Below, piece after piece: positions 10,944 through 48,611 of a DNA stretch of 61,287 bases. Within the stretch, counting starts at the first letter, position 1, and the number at the start of each line of letters is the position of its first letter. The position numbers were made by a program, and so were the translations under genes. The notes beneath the pieces were generated by a model. That model saw nothing but the letters and a program-made list of their open reading frames with translations, did not search any database and had not been told where the DNA came from. This DNA is from a virus: positions 1-61,287 of the IMG/VR virus record IMGVR_UViG_3300050014_000138; one strand, given 5' to 3'.

Positions 10944-10947
10944 ATGT

Positions 10948-14082: not shown

Positions 14083-14084
14083 AT

Positions 14085-15280: not shown

Positions 15281-15292
15281 ATTAATTTTTAT

Positions 15293-17640: not shown

Positions 17641-17642
17641 GA

Positions 17643-18561: not shown

Positions 18562-18568
18562 ATACTCA

Positions 18569-18578
18569 ACCTTAAGGT
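18569..18578. repeat. palindrome ACCTTAAGGT upstream of HNH gene
   Basis: A perfect 10-bp palindrome inside the 33-nt gap between the GT2 N-terminal fragment and the HNH start, with partly extended arms (TC/GA). It could be an operator, a translational-control hairpin, or an insertion relic. Confidence 0.4.
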
Positions 18579-18594
18579 CGAATATACATATTAT

Positions 18595-19110: not shown

Positions 19111-19114
19111 ATTA

Positions 19115-20488: not shown

Positions 20489-20512
20489 ATTATATTTCTA
20501 GTTCTTTTGGAG

Positions 20513-21040: not shown

Positions 21041-21052
21041 ATATTGTAACAA

Positions 21053-21081
21053 ATATTATCATAACTCTATTAATAAAACAA
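21053..21081 (-). promoter_or_regulatory. sigma70-like promoter for dUTPase gene
   Basis: Minus strand: TTGTTT (21076-21081), a 17-nt spacer, TAATAT (21053-21058), then 12 nt to the dut ATG, giving a leader of only a few nucleotides. Confidence 0.6.
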
Positions 21082-21085
21082 CTTA

Positions 21086-23523: not shown

Positions 23524-24562
23524 AGGTTTTGATAGTTTCTACTAAGGTTTGTTGTTTATTAAAAATCCATATTTCATGAAGATACCCCATTTCTAAACAT
23601 GTATTATGTTTTATTAATGTTTCTTCTTTTTTAGATTGAAATGTATATTCTGATTTTACTTCTATAAATTTGTTTTGTGATTTTACAAAAATATCTGGAT
23701 AATATCTATGTTTATCATTATTTAAAATATACCATATCTCTGGAATATTTCTTTTTTTAGTTATAATATCATCTTCTAAAATTGTTTTTAGAAGTAAATT
23801 AATGGCGGCGGGTTCATATCCTTGAACTTTTATTTCATTTCCACTTGGATATGTAAACAATTTCCAATTTTTATAACATTTCTCTACTATATCGGGATGT
23901 TGTGATGGAAACCTGACTCCAAAATTTTTTAAATTGGTTTGTGCAGATTTTTCTTTCATTTCGGAAGTTTGTGTTACAAAATCACATCCATATTTTTCTC
24001 TACAAGTTTTTTTAAGATTTCCTACTTGTTTAATATATGACCCATTTTTAATTTTGGTTTCTATTGATTTTTCTGGATTATTCCAAGTTCTACTTCCGTG
24101 CAATTTTTCATTTGTATCATAACATTTTTCACGAGAAATACTATTTTTATTCCAATTATGAGTTACGCCATATTTATTCATCATTGTTTTTTGTTGTAAT
24201 GGTAAATTATTATATGATGAATTTCCATATCGTTCCAATTTAGTTTTTTTAATATTGGTTATTCTGTCAATACTATGAAGAGCACATTTTTTACTACAGA
24301 ATTCTTTCACATATCCATCAAAAAAGGATCGAAATTGTTTACTTGTTAATAAGTTATTACATTTTTTACAATGCTTCTCACCATAAACGTGTTTATAAAG
24401 TTTTTCGGAAAATTTGATTCCATCATATGTAGAGTTAATATAAGAAAATGTGTTACCATAAAGATTATAATTCTTTTTTGATCGAAATATTTGAGTAAAG
24501 TTATCTGGAAATTGATTAACTATATTTAATATTTCATTATGTGATAAAATATTATTTTCCAT
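23510..24562 (-). CDS. homing endonuclease, PD-(D/E)XK (Vsr-like/DUF7487-type)
   Basis: 350 aa from ATG at 24562, which overlaps the 3' end of the small RHH gene by 11 nt. The N-terminal half has a Cys4 zinc finger (CKKCNNLL...FCSKKC) and repeated modules of the form 'KKTKLERYGNSSYNN', 'MMNKYGVTHNWN', 'KKTCREKYGCDFVTQ' and 'NFGVRFPSQHP', a DNA-binding repeat seen in phage endonucleases. The C-terminus has the nuclease core YYPDIFVKSQNKFIEVKSEY (PD...ExK). No ribozyme is visible around it. It probably cleaves a GT- or RHH-region allele lacking it. Confidence 0.7.
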   Translation of the reverse strand: MENNILSHNEILNIVNQFPDNFTQIFRSKKNYNLYGNTFSYINSTYDGIKFSEKLYKHVYGEKHCKKCNNLLTSKQFRSFFDGYVKEFCSKKCALHSIDRITNIKKTKLERYGNSSYNNLPLQQKTMMNKYGVTHNWNKNSISREKCYDTNEKLHGSRTWNNPEKSIETKIKNGSYIKQVGNLKKTCREKYGCDFVTQTSEMKEKSAQTNLKNFGVRFPSQHPDIVEKCYKNWKLFTYPSGNEIKVQGYEPAAINLLLKTILEDDIITKKRNIPEIWYILNNDKHRYYPDIFVKSQNKFIEVKSEYTFQSKKEETLIKHNTCLEMGYLHEIWIFNKQQTLVETIKTYASK

Positions 24563-24707
24563 ATTGAGATCCACTGATGGCATTTATAATTGCTATTTGA
24601 GTAAATCCACTCATTGTAAATCCATATTTTTTACAATGAGTTTTTAATATTTCTGCCAAACAATTAGAAATTTGTATAGACCATTTATCTGATTTTTTAC
24701 TGTTCAT
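24552..24707 (-). CDS. small ribbon-helix-helix-like protein
   Basis: 51 aa from ATG at 24707 to a TAA at 24552-24554. It reads as strand WSIQIS, helix NCLAEILKTHCKKYG, then TMSGFTQIAIINAI, the Arc/CopG ribbon-helix-helix layout (strand, helix, 'G.s.S.f...A'). It is a possible repressor. The downstream endonuclease start lies inside its last codons. It lies directly after a second RHH-like gene. Confidence 0.5.
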   Translation of the reverse strand: MNSKKSDKWSIQISNCLAEILKTHCKKYGFTMSGFTQIAIINAISGSQYGK

Positions 24708-27756: not shown

Positions 27757-27785
27757 TTGTATTGATTGACATTATCAGTTAATAT
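27757..27785 (+). promoter_or_regulatory. possible promoter for HNH-like endonuclease gene
   Basis: TTGTAT (27757-27762), a 17-nt spacer, and TAATAT (27780-27785), 19 nt before the ATG at 27805. A perfect TTGACA at 27766 has no -10 at a usable distance. Confidence 0.4.
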
Positions 27786-27804
27786 GGTGAGATTAATAAA
27801 TTAT

Positions 27805-28410
27805 ATGAATGTGGGAAATAAAAGACGAGTATTTATAAACTCGGGTGAACGATTTGGGAAACTTGTTGTAATAGGTGAATCTTCTTTAGAAGAAAGACCT
27901 TTGTGTGATAATAGTCATGTTTATTATAAATGTAGATGTGATTGTGGAAATATTAAAATAGTAAGATCTGCTAATCTTAAACGAAAGCATAATGTGTCTT
28001 GTGGATGCCAAAAGAAAATAAGTGGAACAAAAAATATACAACAATGGATATCCGATGGAGGTATTAATCCCAATCGAGAATTCGTAGGACAAATAAGTGG
28101 AGCATTGTGGTGTCATATTAAAAATAATGCCAAAGAAAGAAACCACAAGATTGATATAACAAAAGAATATATATGGGAACTTTTCTTGAAACAAAATGGT
28201 AAGTGTGCATTGACAGGGTTAAAATTGAAATTATCTCCATTAAGTATAAATCGTTATGATAATGATGCATCTTTAGATAGGATAGATTCAAAAATTGGAT
28301 ATGTAATTGGGAATGTTCAATGGGTTCATAAGGATGTTAATTTTATGAAAATGGATTTCCCAGAAGATTATTTTGTGAAAATGTGTAAGTTAGTATCTAT
28401 AAATAAATAA
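27805..28410 (+). CDS. HNH-like homing endonuclease beside DNA polymerase
   Basis: About 201 aa from ATG at 27805; ATGs upstream overlap the putative -10. The N-terminus GERFGKLVVIGE...CRCDCGN...SCGC is a DNA-binding/zinc module common in phage endonucleases. The C-terminus KCALTGLKL...ASLDRIDSKIGYVIGNVQWVHKDVNFMK is the HNH-type core used in this family (RID...GY..GNVQWV...N.mK). It sits 1 nt before the polymerase start, the position expected for a free-standing endonuclease that targets the conserved polymerase gene of relatives. Confidence 0.7.
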   Translation: MNVGNKRRVFINSGERFGKLVVIGESSLEERPLCDNSHVYYKCRCDCGNIKIVRSANLKRKHNVSCGCQKKISGTKNIQQWISDGGINPNREFVGQISGALWCHIKNNAKERNHKIDITKEYIWELFLKQNGKCALTGLKLKLSPLSINRYDNDASLDRIDSKIGYVIGNVQWVHKDVNFMKMDFPEDYFVKMCKLVSINK

Positions 28411-32329: not shown

Positions 32330-33073
32330 ATGAAAAAAGAAGTATTACAGACATTTATTCGCCGTTACACTTTAGGTGGAGAGATTAATAAAGTAAAGTG
32401 GAAATATAACGCTACTGACAAAACTTTGCATACTCGTGCTGCGATTGATAATCGTAGTTTTGTTGCAGATGTGATAATGAATGATTTTAGTGATCTAGGA
32501 GCAGAAGATGTTATAATTTGTATCGGTGATACTGGAAAAGTAAAATTAATGTTAACTCCTTTTGGGGAAGACGTTACATTAGCAATTAACAAAAGTGGTG
32601 ACAGAATTCTTGGATTTACTGTTTCAGATTCGGATTGTGAAAGTTATTGTACCGCTGCTGATCCAACATCTATAGATCCTATAGCAAAGAATTTACAGGA
32701 TGTCCCTGAATATCATGTTGTTATTCCACTCACCGAGGAGTTTTTAGATAAGTTTTTAAAAGCGAGATCTGCACTTCAGGATGTTGATTCTTTTTCGGTT
32801 GGAATGAATAAAAAGGGAATATTTGAAGTTGTAATGGGATATACTACCGCAAATTCTAATAGAATTAGAATAACTCCAGTTACAGAACCAGATAAAAACA
32901 AATTGGATGGAGCATTGGCGTTTCCAATTAAGAATTTAGTTGAAATTTTTAAAGTTAATTCAGATATTACTGGAGGAACATTGTCAATTAATAGTGCGGG
33001 TATTATTAGATTGTATTTTAAAAATGATAAATATACCTGTACATTTTATCAATTTTGTAATAAAAAAGCTTAA
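32330..33073 (+). CDS. 45: sliding clamp (T4 gp45-like)
   Basis: 247 aa (T4 gp45: 228). The order fits the T4-type clamp: an N-terminal helix/strand with a lysine patch (KVKWKYN), the AAIDNRSFVADVIMNDF strand pair, the VVIPLTEEFLDKFLKARSAL interdomain helix and FYQFCNK at the C-terminus, where the last residues of T4 gp45 family members form a strand. Trimeric clamps tether polymerase and, in T4, also activate late transcription. The location directly before the clamp-loader gene matches T4 order (45-44). Confidence 0.8.
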   Translation: MKKEVLQTFIRRYTLGGEINKVKWKYNATDKTLHTRAAIDNRSFVADVIMNDFSDLGAEDVIICIGDTGKVKLMLTPFGEDVTLAINKSGDRILGFTVSDSDCESYCTAADPTSIDPIAKNLQDVPEYHVVIPLTEEFLDKFLKARSALQDVDSFSVGMNKKGIFEVVMGYTTANSNRIRITPVTEPDKNKLDGALAFPIKNLVEIFKVNSDITGGTLSINSAGIIRLYFKNDKYTCTFYQFCNKKA

Positions 33074-33438: not shown

Positions 33439-34122
33439 ATGTTTAAAATTGAAATGGAAGAAAAAGAAACTCCGATTCAATCTACGCTTTGGGCGGAAAA
33501 ATACCGCCCAAATCAATTAGATGATTTTGTCGGAAATAGTGTAATAATGGAATCAATTAAATTGTGGATTGAAAAAAAAGACATACCACAAGTTTTTTTG
33601 TTTGGTTCTCCTGGATGTGGTAAAACGAGTCTGGCGAAAATCCTTATTAAACATATTCCTTGTGATGTATTGTTTCTTAATGCGTCCGATGAAAACTCAG
33701 TAGATATAATGCGAAATAAGGTTCAAGATTTCGCTATGACAATGGGAATGGAACCTTTAAAAATTATCATACTGGATGAATGTTTAGATGAAAATACTAT
33801 TATATGGGTATTACGAGATGGAAAAGAACAAGGAATCCCCATAAAAGATGTTAACTCGAATGATGATTTAGTTAAATCATTAAATATAGATCAGAATAGA
33901 ATAGAGTGGAGACCTTTTTATTTAATAAATCAAGGGGAGAAAGAAGTGTATGAAATTGAATTTAATAATGGAGAAGTTGTTATATGTACTGATACACATA
34001 AGTGGTATGTAAAAGATGATAATGATAAAATTATTCGTGTTAAAACGATTGATTTAATCCGTGGTAAATATAACTCTATTCTAACAACAGAAGAAAATCG
34101 GATGATTTCCGAATCTCAATGA
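33439..34122 (+). CDS. 44: clamp-loader ATPase gp44, N-extein plus N-terminal split intein
   Basis: 227 aa. Residues 1-114 are the gp44 AAA+ start: WAEKYRPNQLDDFVGN, Walker A GSPGCGKTS (about 56-64) and Walker B IIILDE (to E114). At C115 the sequence becomes an intein: C115-LDENTIIWV (block A) and VVICTDTHKWY (block B, TxxH), then it stops. The 113-residue N-intein matches naturally split inteins in length. The partner (39-aa C-intein plus C-extein) is 945 nt downstream, beyond an endonuclease gene. Splicing in trans would rebuild DE-CDR, i.e. the DExD ATPase motif, so the loader is presumably inactive until splicing occurs. Confidence 0.9.
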   Translation: MFKIEMEEKETPIQSTLWAEKYRPNQLDDFVGNSVIMESIKLWIEKKDIPQVFLFGSPGCGKTSLAKILIKHIPCDVLFLNASDENSVDIMRNKVQDFAMTMGMEPLKIIILDECLDENTIIWVLRDGKEQGIPIKDVNSNDDLVKSLNIDQNRIEWRPFYLINQGEKEVYEIEFNNGEVVICTDTHKWYVKDDNDKIIRVKTIDLIRGKYNSILTTEENRMISESQ

Positions 34123-34130
34123 TATTTATT
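34122..34130 (+). promoter_or_regulatory. ATATTTATA-type start-proximal motif
   Basis: ATATTTATT, then 3 nt, then the ATG of the endonuclease at 34134. It suggests the endonuclease has its own (late?) transcript, independent of the clamp-loader operon. Confidence 0.3.
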
Positions 34131-34133
34131 ATT

Positions 34134-35075
34134 ATGAATAATAAATCTAGATATCATAGACAATTTTTTTCGGATTGTGAGATACAATATTTGGTAGAAA
34201 AATATAGGGGTGGGGTTAAATGGAAATCGTTATGGAATGAAACAATATTTGATTCCGAATATAAATGGAGAAATGATATTATTAGACATATGGATAATTT
34301 GTCGTGTAATAAATTTTTTTATGAATTAGAATTTCCACTGTTTTGTAAACATTGTGGAATTAGATTGTTGGAAAGTTCATATTGTTATGGAGGTAAATGG
34401 AAAGGAGCAGATAAAGGATTTCATAAATATTGTCCTTTATGTGAGTCTAAATGTGTTTGGAAATCTATAATAAAATCTTCACAGGAATGTGAAAATATAT
34501 CTAATGGATTAAAAAAATGGGCTAAAACATCCGAAGGTAAAAATTATTATAAATTAAGAGGTAACGCAAATAGTCAATTTATGAAAGATTTTTCCCTCAG
34601 TGTTAATGGAAAAAAAATTAAAAAACAAGCATCCAAAAAACAATCCATCACAATGCGAGAAAAAATTAAAAACGGAGAATTTACTCCTAATATAACTAAT
34701 TCGTGGACACATTGGGATGCAAAAATAAAAATTGATGGTAAAATAAAAAAATTCAGAAGTTCGTGGGAAGCTTGTTTTTATATATGCAATTCTAATTTAA
34801 AATATGAAATGTTAAGAATTCCATATGGTGATAAAATTTATATTGCGGATTTTTATGATGAAAAAAATAGAATTTTATACGAATTGAAACCAAGAGCATC
34901 ATATAATACACAAATAAAAAAAATAACCGAAATTATAGAATATTGTAAAGAAAATGGAATAATATTTAAATGGATTAATGAAAATAACATTTTGAAATAT
35001 ATTGATTCTTCCAAAATTAACGGATATAATAGGAAACAGTATAATAAGATGATGCGAGGATTAAAATATGTATGA
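34134..35075 (+). CDS. homing endonuclease inside split-intein clamp-loader locus (Vsr-like PD-(D/E)XK)
   Basis: 313 aa; a start 15 nt earlier (ATG overlapping the upstream TGA) is possible. The N-terminal region carries a Cys4 zinc finger (CKHCG...CPLCESKC) after an RYHRQFFSDCEIQYL segment. The C-terminal nuclease core is SSWEACFYI, then YIADFYDEKNRILYELKPRA: D..(about 12)..E-x-K with a preceding acidic helix, the PD-(D/E)XK/Vsr-like layout described for endonucleases in fractured split-intein loci. It is free-standing, not fused to the intein, and would home into intein-less gp44 alleles at the Walker B codons. Confidence 0.75.
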   Translation: MNNKSRYHRQFFSDCEIQYLVEKYRGGVKWKSLWNETIFDSEYKWRNDIIRHMDNLSCNKFFYELEFPLFCKHCGIRLLESSYCYGGKWKGADKGFHKYCPLCESKCVWKSIIKSSQECENISNGLKKWAKTSEGKNYYKLRGNANSQFMKDFSLSVNGKKIKKQASKKQSITMREKIKNGEFTPNITNSWTHWDAKIKIDGKIKKFRSSWEACFYICNSNLKYEMLRIPYGDKIYIADFYDEKNRILYELKPRASYNTQIKKITEIIEYCKENGIIFKWINENNILKYIDSSKINGYNRKQYNKMMRGLKYV

Positions 35076-35799
35076 ATTAAAAATAAAATCTATTAAAAAA
35101 TCTGGAATTAGGAAAACGTTGGATATATCGGTAGATGGAACTCATAATTTTTTTATTGGTAAGTCTAAAATATTAACATCTAATTGTGATCGTCTCACAC
35201 CCGAAGCACAATGTTGTATGCGTAATCTTACTGAAACATATTCACAATCAACGAGGTTTATTTTAACCGCAAATTATCAAGAGAAAATAATACCTGCAAT
35301 TAAATCAAGGTTTCAAAGTTTTGAGATTAAACCTCCTTCTAAAGCTGAAGTGATGAAACATCTGGTTAAAGTATTAAATAAGGAAAATATTAAATATAAA
35401 CCAGAAGATGTGGCATTCATTGTATCATCATATTTCCCTGATATGAGAAAAATAATTAATTTTTCTCAACAATCATCTATCAATGGTGAATTGAAGATTG
35501 CCAAAGCTAATTCAGCAGATCATGATTTTAAGACGAAATTGATTGAATTACTTAAAACTCCTAGTAAAGCGGGTATATTCACCGAGATTAGACAACTTGT
35601 TGCTGATGCATCGTTTTCTAATTATGAAGAAGTATATAAATATCTTTTCGATCATGTTAATGAATATGCCCCAAATAAAGCACCCGAAGTCATTTTACAT
35701 CTTGCAGACGCAGTATATCAATCTGCTCTTGTATTTGAACGTGAAATTACATTTGTAGCAGCAATGCACAAGTTATTAACGGTATTGAATAGTAAATAA
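35068..35799 (+). CDS. 44: C-terminal split intein plus clamp-loader gp44 C-extein
   Basis: 243 aa. Residues 1-39 are a C-intein: LKIKSIKKSGIRKTLDISVD, then THNFFIGKSKILTSN (blocks F and G) ending in N39, followed by C40 as the +1 nucleophile. From C40 on it is gp44: CDRLTPEAQCCMRNLTETYSQSTRFILTANY (sensor 1 TAN; SRFQSFEI around sensor/arginine-finger region). N-extein (114) plus C-extein (204) gives 318 aa, matching the 319 aa of T4 gp44. The penultimate intein residue is Ser rather than the common His. It overlaps the endonuclease gene by 8 nt. Confidence 0.9.
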   Translation: MYELKIKSIKKSGIRKTLDISVDGTHNFFIGKSKILTSNCDRLTPEAQCCMRNLTETYSQSTRFILTANYQEKIIPAIKSRFQSFEIKPPSKAEVMKHLVKVLNKENIKYKPEDVAFIVSSYFPDMRKIINFSQQSSINGELKIAKANSADHDFKTKLIELLKTPSKAGIFTEIRQLVADASFSNYEEVYKYLFDHVNEYAPNKAPEVILHLADAVYQSALVFEREITFVAAMHKLLTVLNSK

Positions 35800-36291: not shown

Positions 36292-36332
36292 TAAAGTATA
36301 TTCTATTGCATATGACCAATATGTATGGGTAT

Positions 36333-37094
36333 ATGAAATACAAAATATACAAATTACAAAATAAGATAAATGGAAAAATTTATATTGGTAAAACTAAACG
36401 ATCTATTGTAGCGAGGATGAAGGATCATAGAAATAGTAAATGTTGTATTTATCTTTATAATGCGTTGAAAAAATATGGAGAAGATGGATTCGATATAAAC
36501 ATTATTTACGAGACTGATAATGAGGATGATATATGTCGAAAAGAAAAAGAATATATTTTACAATATAATTCATTAGTTCCGAATGGATATAATTTAGTAT
36601 TGGATACAGATCAAGGACGAACATTTCATAGTTCTACCAAACAATTAATGAGTAATAATACTCAAGGTGGTTGTAAAACTGTTAAAATATGGTCTAAGTA
36701 TATTGGTGTTAGATCTCGTAAAAATAGCAAATTATATTCTGTTAGAGTTACTAAAAATCAAAAAACATACTTCCATTATTATACTAACGAGTTAGATGCG
36801 GCGAAGGCATATGATAAAGTTGTTTTGTATTTATATGGATTAAATGCTAAATTAAATTTTCCAGAGAAGTTTGAAATATATAAAACTATTAATTTAAAAG
36901 AATTTTTTTGTGAATTTTGTAAAAAACATACAAAAACATCGAAATATATAGGTGTATCTAAAATGTCTTATTATGAAAATTCTCCTTGGAGAGCATATGT
37001 TTATAAAGATAAAAAACAAATAAATTTAGGAATATATAAAACAGAAAAAGAGGCTTATGACGCAAGAAAAAAATATAATGATAAAATCAAATAA
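36333..37094 (+). CDS. GIY-YIG homing endonuclease with two AP2-type DNA-binding domains
   Basis: 253 aa from ATG at 36333, just before the domain; in-frame starts 21-27 nt earlier exist. The nuclease is YKIYKLQNKINGKIYIGKT (GIY-YIG as KIY-YIG) with R at RSIVARMKDH and a catalytic-type E (EKEYILQYN). Residues about 120-175 (SKYIGVRSRKNSKLYSVRV...AKAYDKVVLYLYGLNAKLNFP) and 200-250 (SKYIGVSKMSYYENSPWRAYVY...LGIYKTEKEAYDAR) are two AP2/ERF-like domains. It probably recognises a site in a neighbouring gene. It overlaps the start of the next gene by 17 nt. Confidence 0.8.
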   Translation: MKYKIYKLQNKINGKIYIGKTKRSIVARMKDHRNSKCCIYLYNALKKYGEDGFDINIIYETDNEDDICRKEKEYILQYNSLVPNGYNLVLDTDQGRTFHSSTKQLMSNNTQGGCKTVKIWSKYIGVRSRKNSKLYSVRVTKNQKTYFHYYTNELDAAKAYDKVVLYLYGLNAKLNFPEKFEIYKTINLKEFFCEFCKKHTKTSKYIGVSKMSYYENSPWRAYVYKDKKQINLGIYKTEKEAYDARKKYNDKIK

Positions 37095-38095: not shown

Positions 38096-39196
38096 ATGAT
38101 TGACAATAAGTTAATATCATCTGTAATTACAGTTATCCCAACTTTACCAATTCGTGGTCTATATTATATTGGGCAGTATGGTACTAGCGGATATGCTTCA
38201 GCGGCAAGAGGATATCTATATCATTATTTTACAAACGGGATCCCAATAACTTGGGATCCTTTATATTTTGATAATTCAAAATTGAGTGATGAAGACGTAT
38301 ATGATGTAGTTATTAAATCATTAATAAATAAACCATTACCAAATTGTGATATGGTTATAATGCATAGCACTCCTGATTTATGGCCAAAGTTTTGGAATGA
38401 TAAACGCAATATATTAAACAATAAAGTTGTTAATGGGTATTGTACTTGGGAAACAAATAGATTACCAGTTGATTGGGTAAAATGTATAAATGGATATGTT
38501 AATGAAGTATGGTGTCCATCAACATACAATGAAACTACATTTAAAGAATCTGGAGTAACTAAACCAATACGAGTGGTTCCACATATATTTCTTCCTCATA
38601 AACTACCGAATCGTAAAATGATTAAGATAACCAGTTTTTCAAACGAAGAACTGTTGAAAGACAATAATAGATTTACATTTTATTCCATTGGAGAAATGAA
38701 CGCTCGGAAGGGAATTGATGATACTATTAAATCATTCTGTACCGCATTCAAAGAATCTGATCCAGTACGACTAATTCTTAAAGTTCATTATAAAGATTAT
38801 TCTTATAAAAATAAGAAAAAGTGTGAAGATATGGTTTCTGATATAATTAAAGAATTTCCTTCTCATGCACCAATTATTTGTTTATTTGATAATATGACAA
38901 ACAATGAAATGCTTGCATTACATTCTATTGGAGATTGTTATGTGAGTTTAACTAAATCAGAAGGATTTGGGTTAACTATATTTGATGCATTTAATTATAA
39001 TAAAAAAATTATTTGTACTGGATATGGTGGACATATGGATTTTCTTGGTAATAGTTATTCAGGACTTATTGATTATAAAATTGGTTCAGTTAATGGAATG
39101 AGTTCTTTTTCGTCCAATTATACCGAAGACCAATCATGGGCATATCCAAACTTGGATCATGCAGTTGAATTAATGAGAAGAGAAGTCAATATATGA
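38096..39196 (+). CDS. GT4-like glycosyltransferase
   Basis: 366 aa, GT-B fold. An early GTSGYASAARGYLYHYF segment contacts the acceptor in related enzymes. The donor domain has FTFYSIGEMNARKGIDDTIKSF and VSLTKSEGFGLTIFDAFNYNKKIICTGYGGHMDFL (EGFGL...E replaced by D). It resembles the 19115 enzyme of the first island in the GGHMDFL/SGHLDFL ending. It opens the second glycan island. Confidence 0.75.
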   Translation: MIDNKLISSVITVIPTLPIRGLYYIGQYGTSGYASAARGYLYHYFTNGIPITWDPLYFDNSKLSDEDVYDVVIKSLINKPLPNCDMVIMHSTPDLWPKFWNDKRNILNNKVVNGYCTWETNRLPVDWVKCINGYVNEVWCPSTYNETTFKESGVTKPIRVVPHIFLPHKLPNRKMIKITSFSNEELLKDNNRFTFYSIGEMNARKGIDDTIKSFCTAFKESDPVRLILKVHYKDYSYKNKKKCEDMVSDIIKEFPSHAPIICLFDNMTNNEMLALHSIGDCYVSLTKSEGFGLTIFDAFNYNKKIICTGYGGHMDFLGNSYSGLIDYKIGSVNGMSSFSSNYTEDQSWAYPNLDHAVELMRREVNI

Positions 39197-39906
39197 ATTA
39201 TCCAAAATCTTTAGCAATAGAAACTTCAACAGTTTGTAATTTAAAATGTATAATGTGTACTCATTCCGCAGTAAATTTTGGAAGACCTAAGATTTTTTTA
39301 CCTAATGATATAATTGATAAGTTAATTCCATATATTGAACATGCTGAAAGTTTACAGTTACATGGAATTGGTGAACCGTTGTTGAGTCCATCTTTTTGGA
39401 AAGTTTTATCTCACGTATCAAAAGACTGTTGGGCAACCGTTAATTCTAATTTTGTAAATGTAACAACGGATCAAATGGAAAATTTAGCAACATCGAATTT
39501 AAAAAATATATCAGTATCTATAGATTCTCCAAATCGTGATACATATTATATAATACGAGGTGCTGATTTGGATAAGGTTATTGAGAATATTAAAAAAATG
39601 ATATCAATTATTAAAAAAACCGAATCCAAATTGTTTGTTGTATTAAATATGACAATAATGAAAGAAAATATTGACCAAATAAATGAAACATTGGATTTAT
39701 GTAAAAAATTAGAATGTTTCAGAGTCGATACTTGGCCAATGAATAATTGGGATTCTATAGAGTTAGATAGAGATATTAGAAATTTTAAATTTTCGTATAA
39801 TGATCAAAAACCAGCATCTTTTAAAGAATTGTATAATAGTAAAATACAAGAGTCAGTTGATTATTCCAAACTTATAAATATGAATTTTACTTATAATTTT
39901 ATTTAA
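39193..39906 (+). CDS. radical SAM enzyme, core domain (separated from its SPASM domain)
   Basis: 237 aa. C15-NLK-C19-IM-C22 is the CxxxCxxC motif that binds the SAM-reducing 4Fe-4S cluster. HGIGEPLLSP is the GE motif, SVSIDSPNRDTYYIIRG the ribose/SAM region, all in the SPASM-type subfamily order. The frame ends shortly after residue 230, and the next gene holds the missing SPASM domain. Deleting one copy of an imperfect 29-nt repeat at the junction (39880-39908) would fuse the two in frame. Such enzymes modify peptides or sugars; the target here is unknown. Confidence 0.75.
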   Translation: MNYPKSLAIETSTVCNLKCIMCTHSAVNFGRPKIFLPNDIIDKLIPYIEHAESLQLHGIGEPLLSPSFWKVLSHVSKDCWATVNSNFVNVTTDQMENLATSNLKNISVSIDSPNRDTYYIIRGADLDKVIENIKKMISIIKKTESKLFVVLNMTIMKENIDQINETLDLCKKLECFRVDTWPMNNWDSIELDRDIRNFKFSYNDQKPASFKELYNSKIQESVDYSKLINMNFTYNFI

Positions 39907-39937
39907 ATATGAATTTAACTGTTAAAGACTGTAAACA
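39880..39937 (+). repeat. imperfect 29-nt tandem duplication at radical SAM/SPASM junction
   Basis: ATGAATTTTACTTATAA (from 39880) and ATGAATTTAACTGTTAA (from 39909) are offset by 29 nt, a length that is not a multiple of three. Upstream flanks also match (ATAAAT/TTAAAT). The offset shifts frame and supplies the ATG of the SPASM open frame. Removing 29 nt gives one 308-aa protein. Confidence 0.5.
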
Positions 39938-40148
39938 TCCTTGGGAAAATTTACAAATATTATCAAATGGAGAAGTTCGAGTATGTTGTTGGGCGAATTA
40001 TCCTATAGGAAATTTAAATACATCTACTATGGATGAAATTTGGAATGGGAGTTTATTAACTAAAATTAGAGAGTTAGTTAGTAAAGGTGAAACACATTCT
40101 ATGTGTAAAAACGCTGCATGTCCATATATTCAAAAATATAAAAAATAA
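39909..40148 (+). CDS. stand-alone SPASM domain (radical SAM C-terminal half)
   Basis: 79 aa. C8, then C26-C27 in GEVRVCCWANYPIGNL, then C66 and C71 (MCKNAACPYI). CxxPW...i..nG.v..CCw....iGNl.......iWng..l...R is the SPASM/auxiliary Fe-S signature. It is normally fused behind a radical SAM core, which here ends 2 nt upstream in another frame. It could still act in trans, or the locus may be recently broken. Confidence 0.7.
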   Translation: MNLTVKDCKHPWENLQILSNGEVRVCCWANYPIGNLNTSTMDEIWNGSLLTKIRELVSKGETHSMCKNAACPYIQKYKK

Positions 40149-40149
40149 T

Positions 40150-41259
40150 ATGAAAATACTTGAGTTTGAATCGGGGGATATACAACATCCATTTTTTAAA
40201 AATAAAAGTAAGTGTTTAGTGTTAAACGACGTTTATTATAGATTAGTTGGTGACCGTGCGGAAGTATATTATGAAAATAAACGATTGTATGGATTTATTA
40301 ATAGAGATTATAAAAATGCAGATGTTTTATACTGGGGAAGGGAAAAGGAAGTAGATTTATATTTTGGAGAAATACAACCACAATTATCTGTGAATGAAGA
40401 AATAGATTCTTTATTTTTATTATATGATGATTATGAGTGGCAGTATGCTCATTTTGTAATGGATAGTTTCCCAAAACTGTGGTATTGGATTAAACTTCAA
40501 GAAACCGAACATATAAAAATTGGAATAAACAATTTGATTGAATGTCCATGTAAAACTGTAGATATGACAGATAAAGTTAAATATAATACATCATTTATAT
40601 ATGAATATATTGATCTATATTTAAAAAGATATAATTTAAACTATAAAGATAACGTAAAACTTCTAGATAGAAATAAATGTTACTTCATAAAACGTTTAAT
40701 TATACCTATACCATATCAATCAGTCGATACAGGATTATATCCATATAGAAGCTGGGAAATGTTAGATATATTAAAACGTGATATTCCAATTTCAATGGAA
40801 TATGAAAATATATATATTTCACGAAAGGATGTTAGTTCTAAAAAATGGATGCATTATAGAGTTTTATTAAATGAAAACGATATTATAAATAAATTAAATG
40901 AGGTTGGATTTCGTGAAATACAACTAATGAACTATTCGGTTGAAGAAAAAATTCAAATTTTCAAATCTGCTAAAAAAATAATACAAACTGTTGGATCAAA
41001 TTGTTATAATTTAAGGTTTATAGAACCAAAAACGTGGTGTTGTATATTATATCATCCTGAGTATTATTGTTGGTCGGATGATTTGCATAGAATAGTAAAC
41101 TATAAAAATGGAGTTTATAAAGAATATATAGATTCATGTAAAGTTGTAGATAATTCCAATTCATATTATCCAGATGAATATAATACTATGAAGAAAAAAA
41201 TTGATTCTCCGTGGAAGTTTACTGATATAGATAATTTAGTAAAGGAAACAATAATATGA
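40150..41259 (+). CDS. GT61-family glycosyltransferase
   Basis: 369 aa from ATG at 40150, 1 nt after the SPASM stop; an earlier in-frame ATG lies inside the SPASM gene. YEWQYAHFVMDSFPKLWYW matches the 'n..H.l.D.lprl' start of GT61 (DUF563) enzymes. IYISRKD, a later R..LNEN.II..L...GF, then SVEEKIQIFKSAKKIIQTVGSNCYNLRFIEP give the 'isR...R.i.NE', 's...qi.l...a..iig..Gs.l.n..f' signatures. GT61 enzymes act in capsule and N-glycan-like pathways, often transferring xylose or GlcNAc. Confidence 0.75.
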   Translation: MKILEFESGDIQHPFFKNKSKCLVLNDVYYRLVGDRAEVYYENKRLYGFINRDYKNADVLYWGREKEVDLYFGEIQPQLSVNEEIDSLFLLYDDYEWQYAHFVMDSFPKLWYWIKLQETEHIKIGINNLIECPCKTVDMTDKVKYNTSFIYEYIDLYLKRYNLNYKDNVKLLDRNKCYFIKRLIIPIPYQSVDTGLYPYRSWEMLDILKRDIPISMEYENIYISRKDVSSKKWMHYRVLLNENDIINKLNEVGFREIQLMNYSVEEKIQIFKSAKKIIQTVGSNCYNLRFIEPKTWCCILYHPEYYCWSDDLHRIVNYKNGVYKEYIDSCKVVDNSNSYYPDEYNTMKKKIDSPWKFTDIDNLVKETII

Positions 41260-41864
41260 AAAATACATTTAACAATTGGGAAAAAATTGCAAAAATGGAT
41301 ATAGATTCGGTTACTAATTACATATTAACTGGACATAAGGCTTCGACGGCTAAACCAGATATTTGGATTTTAAATATCATTGGAAAAGAAGATAAACCAA
41401 TGACAATTCTAGATTTTGGATGTGGAATTGGTAGAAATACTCTTGGGTTGGCCAAAATTAATCAAAAATGGAATATTGTGGGATATGATAGTGAAAACAT
41501 AATATCTCGTGTTCCTGAGTTTGTGGATATTAATTATAATGGAATAATGCCATCAAATGTTCAATTTGTTTCAGATTGGAATCAATTAAAAACAACAAAA
41601 TTCGACAAAATTATAGCTGTAATTGTATTGCAACATATTATGGAGAAGGTGCTTATAGAATATATACGAGATTTTAAAAATATGACTAATTTTCTATGTG
41701 TTTCGGGTCGTAGATTTAATGATGATGTTAAAAAACGAAGCACATGGACTATTATAGAAGAACAGGGACTTATACCATCTAAGTTTTATAAGGGGCATAT
41801 ACCAATAATATACTCCCCATTGGGAGATCCTAATGAGCATAATATTGCGTGTTATCATTTATAA
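41256..41864 (+). CDS. SAM-dependent methyltransferase
   Basis: 202 aa. ILDFGCGIGRNTLGLAKI is motif I, IVGYDSEN motif II, and FDKIIAVIVLQHIME motif IV, of the generic class I Methyltransf_11/25 type. It begins at ATGA overlapping the GT61 stop. A sugar or aglycone methylation role is inferred from neighbours. Confidence 0.75.
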   Translation: MKNTFNNWEKIAKMDIDSVTNYILTGHKASTAKPDIWILNIIGKEDKPMTILDFGCGIGRNTLGLAKINQKWNIVGYDSENIISRVPEFVDINYNGIMPSNVQFVSDWNQLKTTKFDKIIAVIVLQHIMEKVLIEYIRDFKNMTNFLCVSGRRFNDDVKKRSTWTIIEEQGLIPSKFYKGHIPIIYSPLGDPNEHNIACYHL

Positions 41865-41870
41865 TTCTAT

Positions 41871-42707
41871 ATGAAAAGTGTAATTATTTCTCTTCATAAT
41901 GGATTGGGAGATATAATAATGACATTTCCATTTTTGTTTGAACTTTTAAAAAGTGGATATGATGTAACATTTGAGACTACAAAAGACAAAATGGAGTGGT
42001 TACAATATATGGTTCCCGAATTAAAAGTAAAAGAGTTATTGGTTATAGATGTATATAGTGATTGTAGAACATTTGAACCTGGGTTTGATATTTTAATTAA
42101 TTTAAACAGAATGATGTTTTGTAATACAGCAGCATATGTTTTAAATGATCAAATCGCAATGAAATTAAATCAACAGGTGTTACTTGCTATGTTATTTAAT
42201 TTACATGGTTTACCATTCCCAACTGAATTATCTCCTTCGGCATATATTCATAAAGAGAAACATCCTACTGATAAAATTTTAGTATTTGCAAAATCTAAAA
42301 AGTATAATAGAACCGTTAGTAAAGAAATATTAATAGAACTTGAAAAAATATGTGATAATAAACGTATATTTTTAAACCCACAATATGAAAATTATATAAA
42401 GTTTACCGAAGAAGTAAATAATGCTAAATTTGTATTGTCGGTTGATACAGGAGCTTTACATTTAGCAGAAGCATTATCAACCAAATGGTTTGGTTTATTT
42501 ACTAATATGGGAGGATATACTAGAACAAAATATTATAAACACGGATCATATATTCAATCCAACGTTGTTTGTTCACCATGTAATAGTCATGGTCGAATTC
42601 CTCATGGTGGTGATGATGTTTGTAAATTGGATAACCAAAACCAATACACTTGTGTTTCAGGATTTGATGTGAATTTTATAATAAATAAAGTATATGAAAA
42701 TTTATAA
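41871..42707 (+). CDS. GT9-like (heptosyltransferase-type) glycosyltransferase
   Basis: 278 aa. SLHNGLGDIIMTFPFLFELLKSGYDVTFETT is the GT9 N-terminal motif (GxGDxxxt.P.l..L). VLSVDTGALHLAEALSTKWFGLFT is the donor-site 'v.sdTG..HlA.al..p...lfG' motif. C-terminal Cys residues (VCSPCNSHGR...CKLDNQNQYTC) resemble those of many GT9 enzymes. Family members transfer heptose or other sugars in LPS core or related glycans. Confidence 0.8.
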   Translation: MKSVIISLHNGLGDIIMTFPFLFELLKSGYDVTFETTKDKMEWLQYMVPELKVKELLVIDVYSDCRTFEPGFDILINLNRMMFCNTAAYVLNDQIAMKLNQQVLLAMLFNLHGLPFPTELSPSAYIHKEKHPTDKILVFAKSKKYNRTVSKEILIELEKICDNKRIFLNPQYENYIKFTEEVNNAKFVLSVDTGALHLAEALSTKWFGLFTNMGGYTRTKYYKHGSYIQSNVVCSPCNSHGRIPHGGDDVCKLDNQNQYTCVSGFDVNFIINKVYENL

Positions 42708-42750
42708 TTTTAATAAGTTCACTATTAATCTGGTTTTTGTTTAATAAATG

Positions 42751-42759
42751 ATATTTATA
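42751..42759 (+). promoter_or_regulatory. ATATTTATA-type start-proximal motif
   Basis: ATATTTATA, then TAC, then ATG at 42763. It is the clearest example ahead of a probable late gene. Confidence 0.4.
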
Positions 42760-42762
42760 TAC

Positions 42763-43362
42763 ATGAATAAGCAACAAGTTAAAGAAAATGAATTTGCAGG
42801 TGCTCCTGGAGGAACTAATGGTACTGATAATTACCAAACTGGATATGGTACGTTTGGTTCCCCTGATGTATCCCAGAATCCAAATTTATTTGCCAATAGT
42901 AATAATAACAAAGCGGTTAATCAAAATAGTAATACTGTAAAAGATGCTCCAAACAAAGTTTCTACTGATCAACAAGTTAACGCATTATTCTCTAAAAAAG
43001 AGACCCCAACTCCAGATGAAATTGTAACTGGTATTAAATACGAACTTGGTCAACAGATTAAAAAAGATAAAGCGATGGCAAAAGATACAGTATTAAAGAA
43101 TTTACGTAAAGATCCAAAGTTTTATACTAGTCTTAAAATGATGAATATAGATGATAAAAGTATGGTTGATAATATGACTGAAAATAAACACCCCAACGAT
43201 TCTCCAGAACGAATGAAAATTACTGCGAATCCTGAAGCAACGAAACAAATTTTTGCTGAGTTAGCAAAAGGTCACGATCAAAAATATGTAGTTAATTCAC
43301 AAATTTGTGATGTTATGAAAGAAATGTGGGCAGCGAAACATGCTAGAAGGTTAAATAAATAA
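42763..43362 (+). CDS. probable phage structural or late protein, unknown function
   Basis: 199 aa from ATG at 42763; an ATG at 42748 lies within the ATATTTATA-containing leader. The first 85 residues are Gly/Asn/Gln-rich and look disordered (AGAPGGTNGTDNYQTGYGTFG). The rest is helical and charged (DEIVTGIKYELGQQIKKDKAMAKDTVLKNLRKDPKFYTSLKMM). The style, and the motif shared with the 50972 and 59046 genes, suggest a virion or scaffold-associated protein. No family recognised. Confidence 0.5.
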   Translation: MNKQQVKENEFAGAPGGTNGTDNYQTGYGTFGSPDVSQNPNLFANSNNNKAVNQNSNTVKDAPNKVSTDQQVNALFSKKETPTPDEIVTGIKYELGQQIKKDKAMAKDTVLKNLRKDPKFYTSLKMMNIDDKSMVDNMTENKHPNDSPERMKITANPEATKQIFAELAKGHDQKYVVNSQICDVMKEMWAAKHARRLNK

Positions 43363-43373
43363 ATTATAAAAAG

Positions 43374-43403
43374 TTGACTTTTCTTCTATTAAACAGTTAT
43401 AAT
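43374..43403 (+). promoter_or_regulatory. sigma70-like promoter, extended -35 type
   Basis: TTGACT (43374-43379) inside TTATAAAAAGTTGACT, an 18-nt spacer, and TATAAT (43398-43403), then 7 nt to ATG 43411. Predicted leaderless; it rules out the ATG at 43402, which overlaps the -10. Confidence 0.7.
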
Positions 43404-43410
43404 GGTTAAT

Positions 43411-44475
43411 ATGAATAATATACCACGGGCTTTTTGTATAACGTTAAAAGAAACTCAACTTAGAACTAATGGATTTTTAGAATTATCTAAAAATGCTGGA
43501 CTAAATGTAGAGTTGTTTTATGGAATTTTAGGAAATCGGTTGGGACTTTCCCCCAAGTTTACAAACGAAATTGAACGTCCAGGAAAAAATATATCATTGA
43601 ATGATCAAGCAATTGGATGTACTTTGTCTCATTTTACATTGTGGAATTTATTAAAGTATCTTCCCGAAGATGAATTTCTTATTTTTGAAGATGATGCAGT
43701 AATTAATCCCGATTTTGTAGATAAATTTACTGAGTTATATAATAAACTTCCATTGGATTGGGAAATGGTTTATGTTGGTTGGGTACCAAATGGTAATGAT
43801 GTTCATACTATAATTGTAAATGATGGAATAAGTATCCGAACAGTAAGTGCAACTCACGCATATTTGATTAAGAAGACTATTATTAATAAATTGTGTGATT
43901 GTGTTTTACCCATTCAATCTCCATTAGATTTAACAATCATAAACAAAGTTCTTCCGTTAATAAAATATTATGTTTTTGATCCATGTTTAGTAGAACAAAG
44001 AAGTTATTTGAATTCTACTGATCCAATTTGGGCATCATTAATCTATGATTGGAAAAATGATTTATATGAACAAAAACAAAAAATATTAAATGAGTTATCT
44101 TTAAATGATGATGAATGGTACATGGTAGAAAGTAATGGTGATGAACGATGGAAATGGAGCAAAGATAAATTCACTATTAAAATTCCAAAATTAATTAATT
44201 CTTTACAATTATTCTGTAGTGTCCCATTAGAAAATGTTCTTACAATTACATGTGGTGATCAAACTAAAGATTATAATATGGTTGGTGGAGAAGATGTTAT
44301 TTATATTAAATTAAATGGAAATGCTGATACAATAGAAGGAAAAATGAAATTTCCTTATATTCCAAGTCAAAATGATTCTAACACGACCGATGATAGAACG
44401 TTGGGAATTTGTTTAAGGCAGATAGTAATTGGGGTTGGTAGTGTAAATATACCATTAGAAGTTGTTGATATATGA
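43411..44475 (+). CDS. GT25-family glycosyltransferase with C-terminal extension
   Basis: 354 aa from ATG at 43411. PRAFCITLKETQLRTNGFLELSKNAGL, then ISLNDQAIGCTLSHFTLWNLL...DEFLIFEDDAVINPDF: the GT25 (LPS beta-galactosyltransferase) signature 'L...eiGC.lSH...w......ealIlEDDa.....F'. A STDPIWASL tail ends the transferase at about residue 215. The last 140 residues are a separate beta-rich domain. It has its own strong leaderless promoter and so heads the 43.4-47.7 kb sub-operon. Confidence 0.8.
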   Translation: MNNIPRAFCITLKETQLRTNGFLELSKNAGLNVELFYGILGNRLGLSPKFTNEIERPGKNISLNDQAIGCTLSHFTLWNLLKYLPEDEFLIFEDDAVINPDFVDKFTELYNKLPLDWEMVYVGWVPNGNDVHTIIVNDGISIRTVSATHAYLIKKTIINKLCDCVLPIQSPLDLTIINKVLPLIKYYVFDPCLVEQRSYLNSTDPIWASLIYDWKNDLYEQKQKILNELSLNDDEWYMVESNGDERWKWSKDKFTIKIPKLINSLQLFCSVPLENVLTITCGDQTKDYNMVGGEDVIYIKLNGNADTIEGKMKFPYIPSQNDSNTTDDRTLGICLRQIVIGVGSVNIPLEVVDI

Positions 44476-45005
44476 AAAATATATATTTTATTGCGAATAA
44501 TCACAATGTTAATCTAAATATATTTAGTGATTATAAGAAGGATATCTATAATGGAGATGTTTTACATTTTAATACAATGTATTATTTTGACTTGTTTAAG
44601 GACCATCCAAAAAATATAATATATCATAATATAAATGCATCTGATAAAGGCGTAAGTTGGTGGGGGGTTGATCAGGTGAAGTATTATATGCAATTTTATA
44701 TTAAAGATCGTTATCTTTATTACAATGAATATATACCATTTCATAACCCAGAGTGTAATCCGGTTATTGATAACTGGAAAAAGGACGGTGGGAAACTATT
44801 ATTGCATAGTAAGGAAGATATAGGTAATTATGTTCCACCAACTCAATGTTCATCTGCTGGGTTTATGTGTTATAAGTACTTTAAAGATTTATACGATATG
44901 ATATATTTAATCGGGTTTACGTTTGAAGGATCTAAGAGGCATAACTGGGAATATGAAAAAAGTGTTATGATGGAAGATCATAAAGTTAAAGAATTAACAG
45001 AATAA
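44472..45005 (+). CDS. possible GT29-like (sialyltransferase-type) protein
   Basis: 177 aa. The second half reads PPTQCSSAGFMCYKYFKDLYDMIYLIGFTFEGSKRHNWEYEKSVM, similar in order to sialylmotif S (P.sG......al....v.vyGF) and a terminal HyyE-type motif in GT29-like bacterial and phage proteins. The N-terminal third is a Rossmann-like start (IYFIANN...NGDVLHFNTM). It is short for GT29 and the match is by eye only. Position and 4-nt overlap with the GT25 gene favour a sugar role. Confidence 0.4.
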   Translation: MKNIYFIANNHNVNLNIFSDYKKDIYNGDVLHFNTMYYFDLFKDHPKNIIYHNINASDKGVSWWGVDQVKYYMQFYIKDRYLYYNEYIPFHNPECNPVIDNWKKDGGKLLLHSKEDIGNYVPPTQCSSAGFMCYKYFKDLYDMIYLIGFTFEGSKRHNWEYEKSVMMEDHKVKELTE

Positions 45006-45007
45006 TT

Positions 45008-45601
45008 ATGGGTCCATATAAAATAATTAGTTTCTATACAAAAAATACACCTTATGAGCAAGAAATATTAAATTTAAAAAACTCTTGTGAAATTTTTAAT
45101 TTGAATTATAGTATAGAAGGTGTTGATAATTTTGGAAGTTGGATTAAAAATATTAATCATAAACCAAGATTTATTTATGAGAAATGGAAATTATCCGATA
45201 TTCCAATTGTATGGATAGATGCAGATGGAATATTACGACAGAATCCAACATTATTTAATAATATCATAGAAGATTTTGCCATACATAATATTACACATTC
45301 AGATGGACACCGTGAGTTTAATAGTTCAGTTACATTCTGGAACAAAACTCCATCTGCTGAGATTGCATTACAGAAATGGATTAATGTATCGGAGGCGGAT
45401 TATACAATAATGGACCAACTTCATTTGCAATGGATTTGGCCGGAACTGACTGAAAAATATAATCTAAAAACAAAATGGCTACCTCAAAATTATGCAAAAA
45501 TATTTGATTGGAAAGGTCCAATTGATACAAGTGATTCAGTAGTAATTGAACAATTTCAGGCATCTCGTAGATTTAAAAAAATTATTAATAAACAAATATA
45601 A
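45008..45601 (+). CDS. DxD nucleotide-sugar transferase (GT77-like fold)
   Basis: 197 aa. IISFYTKNTPYEQEILNLKNSC, KPRFIYEKWKLSDIPIVWIDADGILRQNP (K.e.l......V.WiDaD), then FNSSVTFWN and DYTIMDQLHLQWIW match the order of 'nucleotide-diphospho-sugar transferase' (GT77-like) proteins, with the DAD metal-binding motif intact. Sugar and acceptor unknown. Confidence 0.65.
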   Translation: MGPYKIISFYTKNTPYEQEILNLKNSCEIFNLNYSIEGVDNFGSWIKNINHKPRFIYEKWKLSDIPIVWIDADGILRQNPTLFNNIIEDFAIHNITHSDGHREFNSSVTFWNKTPSAEIALQKWINVSEADYTIMDQLHLQWIWPELTEKYNLKTKWLPQNYAKIFDWKGPIDTSDSVVIEQFQASRRFKKIINKQI

Positions 45602-45603
45602 AT

Positions 45604-46320
45604 ATGTTTAAAAATTCGATCGTTGTTTTAAATATTGGAAATGTATTGTGTGATAATGCCAGAAATAGCATATTAAATGCTTGTAAACGGTGGAATTGTA
45701 ATTTTTATGAAATAACCAAAAATAGAGTTGATGATAAAAATATTTGGATTAATAAAATTGTTGGAATATATGAATACTATCAATTAAATCCTAATGTTGA
45801 ACGTATAATGTATTTAGATGCTGACATATTAATACGGGATGATGCTCCAAACCCGTTTGAATTGTTGGACGATAAAGATAAAGTTTATGCTGTATTGGAC
45901 TATAATGATGGATGGGCAACAAAAGAATTATATATACATCGAATGATAGAACCACGGTTGAGAATAGTTCATGATAATTTAAAATACAATGTAGATATAA
46001 ATAATTTAATATCTACTTCTTGTGATTGGTTTTTTAATGCTGGGATGTTTATTCTTTCTCCATTAAGTTGTAAATATGAAATGGATACATTTATAAACAA
46101 TATTCCATTTATATGGAACAATCCACATTTGGAGCAACCAATGTGGAATTACATTCTTAAATGTAGTAATAAAGTTGAATTGATTGACTCAACGTGGAAT
46201 TTATTAAACCCACAAACAAATTTTAACAAAATGGATGCATATATTTACCATTTTACTGGAACTAGGTTTGTGGAATTAAAACCACTATTGCCTTGTTATA
46301 ATTGGAAAACTGAAATATAA
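45604..46320 (+). CDS. GT8-like glycosyltransferase (paralogue A)
   Basis: 238 aa. CDNARNSILNACKRWNC, NPNVERIMYLDADILIRDD (DxD), WFFNAGMFILSP (the N-A-G-M of GT8), EQPMWNYILK and IYHFTG (the C-terminal His ligand) follow GT8 order. It is about 40% identical by eye to the 46989 product, with the same block order and length, so the two arose by duplication; a GT6 gene now separates them. Confidence 0.75.
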   Translation: MFKNSIVVLNIGNVLCDNARNSILNACKRWNCNFYEITKNRVDDKNIWINKIVGIYEYYQLNPNVERIMYLDADILIRDDAPNPFELLDDKDKVYAVLDYNDGWATKELYIHRMIEPRLRIVHDNLKYNVDINNLISTSCDWFFNAGMFILSPLSCKYEMDTFINNIPFIWNNPHLEQPMWNYILKCSNKVELIDSTWNLLNPQTNFNKMDAYIYHFTGTRFVELKPLLPCYNWKTEI

Positions 46321-46326
46321 TGATAT

Positions 46327-46992
46327 ATGAAAAATATTGCTATAGTAACTCTTGCTACTGGAGAATATAATAAGTTTATAGACCCATTGTATAAATCAAT
46401 AGACGAAAAATTTCTTCCAAATCATAATAGAAAAATTTTTGTTTTTTCTGATGTTGATAAAAATGGTTATTATCATATAGATGCATTGCCTTGGCCATTG
46501 AATACATTATTAAAAACGTTTTATTTGAATAGAATTAAATCCGAATTATCTAATTTTGATTATATCTACAATATAGATTCGGATTGTTTGGTTCATTCCG
46601 AAATAACTGAAGAAATATTATATCCAGAAGATTGTTTAGTTGCTCCGTTACATCCTCTTATAAGGAAAACCGAAAACTCATTTGAAACAAATCCATTATC
46701 TACTGCATACGTTGATAATGGATTGAATAGGCCATATTTTCAAGCATGTTTTTTTGGTGGATATACACAATCTATGTTTAATTTAATATCCACATTAAAT
46801 AAAAATATTAAAACTGATATGGATAATAGAATTATTGCAAAATGGCACGACGAATCTCATATAAATAAATATTTAGTTGATCATCCACCGAAAATATTAG
46901 ATGGTGGATATGCATACCCAGATCCAAATAGGTGGCCGAACACATGGGCATTTTCTCCTAAAATAATTCACTACAATAATAATTCAAAATGA
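46327..46992 (+). CDS. GT6-family (ABO blood-group-like) glycosyltransferase
   Basis: 221 aa. IAIVTLATGEYNKFIDPLYKSI, KIFVFSDVD, YIYNIDSDCLVHSEI (DxD as DSD), VAPLHPLI, FQACFFGGYTQSM and KWHDESHINKYLVDHPPKIL. The WHDESHLNKYfl..P.K.L block is diagnostic of GT6, the family of human ABO transferases and bacterial relatives, which add alpha-1,3-Gal or GalNAc. Size matches the short bacterial/phage GT6 form lacking a membrane stem. Acceptors of GT6 are often fucosylated, which fits the GT10/GT11-like genes in the other island. Confidence 0.85.
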   Translation: MKNIAIVTLATGEYNKFIDPLYKSIDEKFLPNHNRKIFVFSDVDKNGYYHIDALPWPLNTLLKTFYLNRIKSELSNFDYIYNIDSDCLVHSEITEEILYPEDCLVAPLHPLIRKTENSFETNPLSTAYVDNGLNRPYFQACFFGGYTQSMFNLISTLNKNIKTDMDNRIIAKWHDESHINKYLVDHPPKILDGGYAYPDPNRWPNTWAFSPKIIHYNNNSK

Positions 46993-48593: not shown

Positions 48594-48611
48594 AATGATA
48601 TATATTCGTAT

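Follow-up and report, generated by a model that had tools for sequence, protein, structure and literature searches.

How does a phage come by a working clamp loader when the gene for it is broken in the middle of its ATPase site? The question is raised by a viral DNA of 61,287 nucleotides (IMG/VR record IMGVR_UViG_3300050014_000138, positions 1 to 61,287), hereafter called the window, in which the gene for the T4-type clamp-loader protein gp44 lies in two pieces with a free-standing endonuclease gene between them. We are confident, though short of certainty, that this locus is a mobile fractured split-intein cassette, composed of an N-intein, an endonuclease gene and a C-intein, that sits in the Walker B motif of the clamp-loader gene.

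Anatomy of the Fractured Gene

The locus consists of three open reading frames (ORFs) placed end to end on the plus strand, at 33439-34122 (227 aa), 34119-35075 (318 aa) and 35068-35799 (243 aa). They meet in short overlaps, and the ATGA at 34119-34122 joins the N half to the endonuclease gene. The features, with the evidence for each, are as follows.

33439..33780, plus strand: gp44 N-extein, 114 codons, from the N terminus through Walker A to Walker B (...IIILDE); phrog_168, 5.7e-31
33781..34119 (stop at 34120-34122), plus strand: N-intein, 113 codons, with Cys1 and block B TDTH; TIGR01445, 1.2e-7; Intein_splicing, 6.5e-7; motif census
34119..35075, plus strand: free-standing gene of a predicted homing-type endonuclease, 318 aa; phrog_15427 endonuclease, 4e-20; AlphaFold2 pLDDT 90; Foldseek best match TnsA
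34632..35072, plus strand: predicted PD-(D/E)XK catalytic domain, the C-terminal part of the endonuclease; invariant columns in 39 homologues; strand/helix pattern of the model
35068..35184, plus strand: C-intein, 39 codons, ending T-S-N, its own ATG overlapping the 3' end of the endonuclease gene; ORF reading and profiles
35185..35799, plus strand, stop included: gp44 C-extein, 204 codons from Cys+1-Asp, with the rest of Walker B, sensor 1, lid and collar; phrog_168, 7.7e-36
32330..33073, plus strand: neighbouring sliding clamp (gp45-like); phrog_223, E=0.019; synteny in L002, L003, L005 and L007

The N-extein ends with codon 114 (GAA, 33778-33780), and the frame then reads C L D E N T... for 113 codons; in the C half, 39 codons ending in ILTSN are followed by CDRLTP... 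for 204 codons. With a slash for each splice junction, the break reads LDE/C...SN/CD. It falls in Walker B, after the second acidic residue, and the two exteins sum to 318 aa. The TIGR01445 model (intein_Nterm) covers residues 115-190 with a score above its cut-off, while the Pfam Intein_splicing match over residues 124-209 stays under its own. The identity of the host gene is clear: both extein halves match PHROG 168, 'clamp loader' (6e-31 and 8e-36), and the gene adjoins those for the sliding clamp and the polymerase, in an order (pol, clamp, gp44) common to the window and its relatives, the intein-free ones included. A search of the window for a second gp44 came up empty.

A preliminary description of the window, made from its letters, had already given gp44 as two pieces, and its coordinates, lengths and break point all proved correct on reading the ORFs; its placing of the break inside the ATPase motif (DE / CD) is borne out at codon 114 and Cys+1. 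The split intein that it proposed is supported by the TIGR01445 match, the splicing residues and the recurrence at one residue, and the free-standing PD-(D/E)XK endonuclease by phrog_15427, the motif and the model. It had filed the locus as a 'fractured gene', which suits an ORF split at one codon with a free-standing endonuclease gene inside.

Recurrence of the Break in Viral gp44 Genes

To place this locus among others, alignments of the nuclease, of the gp44 N half and of the gp44 C half were run against 2.9 million viral contigs, and the loci were analysed with profiles for each extein, each intein half and the nuclease domain. The gp44 search took the best 80 matches per scan. It gave a non-redundant set of 37 fractured gp44 alleles (window included), 87 intact alleles and one, L096, whose intein is unsplit (cis) but occupies the site of the fracture; the ratio of these numbers is not a frequency. 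All of the gp44 intein alleles share a single site, DE/C...N/CD. A full-length nuclease of the same family lies between the halves in 33 of the 37 fractured alleles; L097 and L111 have no nuclease of this family, and in L037 and L049 it is broken or truncated. One fractured allele is carried by LR756500.1, a public, unannotated 462-kilobase phage record in GenBank. Profiles run against the GTDB genome collection yielded three relatives only, and a further fractured gp44 (L197) comes from a GTDB contig binned as a Nitrosarchaeum metagenome-assembled genome. In all, no fewer than 38 phage clamp-loader alleles are fractured at this residue.

With 36 other non-redundant viral alleles, drawn from many assemblies, split in this way at this very residue, neither chance nor an assembly error can account for the locus; the preliminary description had named an assembly artefact among the findings that would refute it. 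The intein-free alleles that it proposed to map in relatives exist as well: there are 87 intact genes, and intein-free alleles (L003-L007) adjoin the window's own lineage.

Some gp44 genes contain further inteins. In L041 (676-4573), L037 (1122-5667) and L025 (1201-5654), gp44 is in three pieces, with a second split intein at Walker A (GK/C..HN/T) that has a very short N part of about 28-33 aa; the nuclease within this second split is of the HNH type in L041 and Vsr/MTES_1575-like in L025, and two trans-splicing reactions would be needed to make these proteins. In L020 and L012, the intein at this Walker A site is unsplit. In L105 (2294-4582), the C half of a fractured gp44 carries a large cis-intein (an insert of about 500 aa, ending HN/CNYP), which puts two inteins of different kinds in one gene.

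Splicing Residues and Selection

The residues on which protein splicing depends are conserved throughout. Cys1, the block-B His and the terminal Asn are each present in 38 of 38 gp44 intein alleles. The residue at +1 is Cys in all 38, against 3 of 83 intein-free alleles (Fisher p=2.7e-28), which otherwise have Ala (60), Phe (14), Ser (5) or Val (1) at this position; owing to this difference, the +1 Cys must be regarded as a feature of the intein and not of gp44. The window has the full class 1 set, namely Cys1, block B T-x-x-H, a block F Asp, the terminal Asn and the +1 nucleophile. A penultimate His is usual in class 1 inteins, but not obligatory; among the 38 alleles this residue is His in 25, Ser in 12 and Gly in one.

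Between the closely related cassettes of L020 and L025, the ratio of nonsynonymous to synonymous substitution rates (dN/dS) is 0.07 for the N-intein, 0.14 for the endonuclease and 0.05 for the C-intein. Intein and nuclease are under purifying selection in close pairs. The split gp44 intein very probably splices. The break parts sensor 1 and the lid from the half with Walker A, so that the unligated halves would be unlikely to hydrolyse ATP; with the break in the ATPase site, replication would depend on trans-splicing. Among solved inteins, the NrdJ-1 split intein (PDB 8ubs) is one of the nearest to the cis intein of L096 (5e-7). An AlphaFold2 model of the L096 allele was poor (predicted local distance difference test, pLDDT, 72; predicted template modelling score, pTM, 0.33) and was not used.

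Mobility of the Cassette

A tree of 124 gp44 exteins was used to map the fracture. Fractured genes are scattered over it: 22 changes are needed, at least 11 of them forced by well-supported branches. The inteins also resemble each other more than their hosts do, with a median identity of 51% for gp44 inteins versus 36% for the gp44 proteins; between the window and L025, the intein is 58% identical and the gp44 extein 31%.

The clearest case is that of L020 and L025. Third-position identity between them is 0.32-0.40 over almost the whole extein upstream and rises in its last four codons; across the N-intein, nuclease and C-intein it is 0.64-0.95; downstream of the cassette it is 0.40 in the first 25 codons and 0.36-0.52 thereafter. 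Such sharp, homing-like boundaries indicate that the whole cassette was transferred as a unit, although the genes on either side of the exchange are far diverged. There was one historical transfer of the cassette in this pair.

The Endonuclease and Its Exchange Between Inteins

The endonuclease is predicted to be a TnsA-like PD-(D/E)XK enzyme, with an E..D..(D/E)xK set in a restriction-endonuclease-like core. E217 (34767), D244 (34848) and E255-x-K257 (34881-34889) are invariant in 39 homologues. In a Foldseek search of the PDB with the AlphaFold2 model of the 318-aa protein, the best match is TnsA, the nuclease of Tn7 (prob 0.97-0.99, E 0.05-0.11), and Pfam gives a TnsA-like match below its cut-off. 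Matches to Vsr types are weaker, at E about 1 for I-Bth0305I (3r3p) and E 0.9 for Vsr, and the invariant set differs from the Vsr-related (EDxHD) core. The fold match favours TnsA over Vsr/EDxHD; a profile of the endonuclease found no match among PDB chain sequences. The N-terminal parts of its relatives are strongly divergent, as might be expected of DNA-binding modules.

Nuclease and intein do not always share a history. In the trees, the nuclease of L098 and L105 groups with those of UvsW-type helicases, a single clade of gp44 nucleases being rejected (approximately unbiased test, p-AU 0.036), whereas their intein lies inside the gp44 inteins, its grouping with UvsW being rejected (p-AU 0.0098); the groups were named after the trees had been seen, which makes both tests weaker than the figures suggest. 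This discordance indicates that nucleases have been exchanged between inteins. There are also six phage types (L046, L051, L052, L053, L055 and L056) in which a nuclease of the same family lies directly upstream of, and overlaps, an intact, intein-free gp44, with Phe at +1 in 6 of 6. In an unrooted tree, which gives no direction, these six nucleases cluster as a single clade inside those of gp44. The arrangement resembles collaborative homing, the origin of which has been called unclear (PMC10448857). In the window's nearest relatives L005 (3689-4516) and L007 (3476-4396), other homing-type endonucleases stand directly upstream of an intact gp44.

Of 35 fractured gp44 loci, 7 have a T4-late-promoter-like sequence, TATAAATA, a short way upstream of where the endonuclease starts (L020:3862-3926, L025:3862-3926, L033, L038, L044, L098 and L011), against an expectation of 1.8. 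It is absent in the window and was dropped from the explanation.

Relatives in Other Phage ATPase Genes

The same nuclease family is found in Walker B split inteins of UvsW-type helicases (L065, L070, L071, L074 and L081) and of an SNF2-like helicase (L057). It occurs in isolates, too. The terminase of Salmonella phage SG1 and of Krischvirus TB34 is split at IDE/C..HN/CA with a relative of the nuclease, UvsW of Proteus phage PM2 at NDE/C..HN/CH, again with a relative, and PhoH of Campylobacter phage CPt10 at VDE/C..KN/CQN with a relative of the gp44 endonuclease; in a helicase-like gene of a Prevotella Lak phage, the break is also at IDE/C. As far as the junction, the terminase of SG1 hardly differs from T4 gp17. 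A relative of the nuclease is also encoded in the terminase gene region of phage kaaroe (MN850574), which infects E. coli MG1655. L070 and TB34 have the N-intein and the nuclease fused in a single ORF. It is worth pointing out that T4 UvsW and gp17 natively read DEC at the Walker B site and intein-free gp44 rarely does; for this reason, the cassette may have entered gp44 from UvsW- or gp17-like genes, carrying its Cys along.

Two contigs binned as Methanobrevibacter (L198 and L199) also hold a fractured UvsW-type helicase, with the junction VDE/C..HN/CQ as read for L198; a phage contig, an archaeal virus and mis-binning are all possible explanations.

Proposed Mechanism and Alternatives

Under the cassette reading, the overlapping ORFs would yield two gp44 precursor proteins, whose intein halves would associate. 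Cys1 and Cys+1 would perform the acyl shift and transesterification and the terminal Asn would cyclise, to leave a 318-aa gp44 with its DECD motif intact. In a co-infecting phage, the endonuclease would cut an intein-free gp44 at or near the DE/C codons, and repair would copy the entire cassette, the Cys+1 codon included. By such a route the family could also have reached Walker B in other P-loop nucleoside triphosphatases (NTPases); its persistence, we propose, is due to a target that codes for an invariant active site. A broader form of this proposal, for which we see about even chances, is that a single family of TnsA-like endonucleases, together with its split inteins, specialises in the Walker B codons (DE/C) of phage P-loop NTPases, passes among the genes for clamp loader, UvsW, SNF2-like helicase, PhoH and terminase, swaps nucleases between inteins, and also lives free-standing beside an intact gp44. 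Passage between the genes would be possible because the DNA that encodes Walker B is similar in all of them. The free-standing stage may represent the first meeting of an endonuclease with a mini-intein, or it may be a remnant after loss of the intein.

Several observations weigh against the cassette reading as applied to the window. Its penultimate intein residue is Ser instead of the usual His, which can slow the cyclisation of Asn. The Foldseek matches are weak (best E 0.05), and the nuclease assignment consists of the motif and the sub-threshold TnsA-like Pfam match. The window's cassette has no close relative, the best endonuclease identity being 59%, and a transfer of its own cannot be dated without one. 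Nor do we claim that the window and L002, whose exteins are 72% and inteins 48% identical, acquired their cassettes separately, since sister inteins are not rejected (p-AU 0.19).

The Ser would suit a very different explanation, namely that the gene simply works in pieces, with the two gp44 chains held in a non-covalent complex and the intein remnants dead. There is a precedent in the split NrdA of an Aeromonas phage, reported to work in this way in a 2007 study as it is cited in PMC3322345 and PMC10448857. Dead remnants, however, would hardly retain every splicing residue in 38 of 38 alleles, a +1 Cys maintained where intein-free genes mostly have Ala, and dN/dS values down to 0.07 (N) and 0.05 (C), and the break lies inside the ATP site; we hold this explanation to be highly improbable. 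Still more remote, to the point of being negligible, is an RNA intron, or a sequencing or assembly artefact of one continuous intein. L096 shows that a continuous intein exists at this site, but intein motifs are present at the protein level on both sides of the break, and the 36 other alleles with split halves come from independent assemblies. An Rfam scan of the stretch, with 0 matches up to E=1, led us to reject the intron.

The alternative closest to the cassette reading accepts trans-splicing and takes the endonuclease as a passenger, or as decayed, no longer driving the spread and with its main target elsewhere. The loss of the nuclease in L097 and L111 and its truncation in L037 and L049 mean that a split intein survives without it, and the exchanged nucleases of L098 and L105 point the same way. 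Against this stand the intact catalytic residues of the window's nuclease, the constraint on it in L020/L025 (dN/dS 0.14) and the movement of the cassette as a unit in that pair. We consider such a passenger unlikely.

What makes these loci useful is that the assembly of split inteins with endonucleases, and their preference for active sites, have so far been argued from scattered examples. Here a large natural series is available at one codon: no intein, a nuclease beside an intact gene, an unsplit intein, fractured genes with a nuclease, fractured genes with a broken nuclease or none, and twice-fractured genes. For at least one transfer, the DNA still bears the traces. Since elements of this kind are also found in cultured T4-like phages, in terminase or UvsW, ordinary crosses of E. 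coli phages can serve to test cutting, homing and trans-splicing. The intein pairs, of roughly 101-113 and 35-42 residues and evolved at LDE/CD, are candidates for new split-intein tools.

Other Features of the Window

More endonuclease-like ORFs are present at 17884-18561, 23510-24583, 27766-28410, 36306-37094 and 57099-57908, flanking polymerase, helicase and glycosyltransferase genes; the one at 36306 is GIY-YIG by Pfam, and the other four, judged by eye, look HNH-like or PD-(D/E)XK-like. Genes for glycosyltransferases, methyltransferases and sugar metabolism fill two large blocks (6044-23523 and 38096-50907), at a density that, also by eye, is unusual for a fragment of a T4-type phage. Outside the window, L008, L009 and L010 contain a fractured phage DnaE (PolIII alpha) with a split intein at N/SH and a Vsr/DUF559-like endonuclease between the halves.

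Comparison with Known Systems

Fractured genes are reportedly found mainly in phages. In them, a conserved enzyme of DNA metabolism is broken by a split intein, which is itself parted where inteins usually carry their endonuclease, and a free-standing endonuclease gene separates the two pieces. Such genes have been known since Dassa et al. (2009, Nucleic Acids Res 37:2560; cited in PMC7090010), who are said to have found eight enzyme types so fractured, half of the loci having a Vsr-related nuclease. Relative to those loci, the present ones differ in having a clamp loader as host, a common Walker B site over several ATPase families, and a nuclease that appears TnsA-like instead of Vsr-related. 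A full-text literature search found no fractured or split-intein phage clamp loader and no account of a Walker B family, the enzyme types of Dassa et al. 2009 being outside that search and possibly including a clamp loader. The preliminary description, whose author knew of no T4-type clamp loader of this kind, is upheld as far as phage clamp-loader reports in the searched literature go; the case is not a singular one, however, as the fracture is widespread and mobile.

Parts of the arrangement have been described elsewhere. Phage MIJ3 has a DNA polymerase B split intein with an HNH endonuclease (PMC6892783), likewise in a fractured phage replication gene, but the gene, the site and the nuclease family are all different. 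In Campylobacter phage IBB_35, split phoH and terminase genes with inteins were reported (PMC3322345), though not as Walker B split inteins or as one family; CPt10, with its fractured phoH and relative of the window's endonuclease, is related to this phage. The TerL1-e inteins of mycobacteriophages, at Walker B of a phage ATPase as here (PMC5050341), were reported as inteins within TerL and not as fractured loci. The NrdJ-1 split intein, near the unsplit intein of L096, has a different host protein. Set beside these systems, the fractured gp44 genes are a new, widespread and mobile form of the known fractured-gene arrangement.
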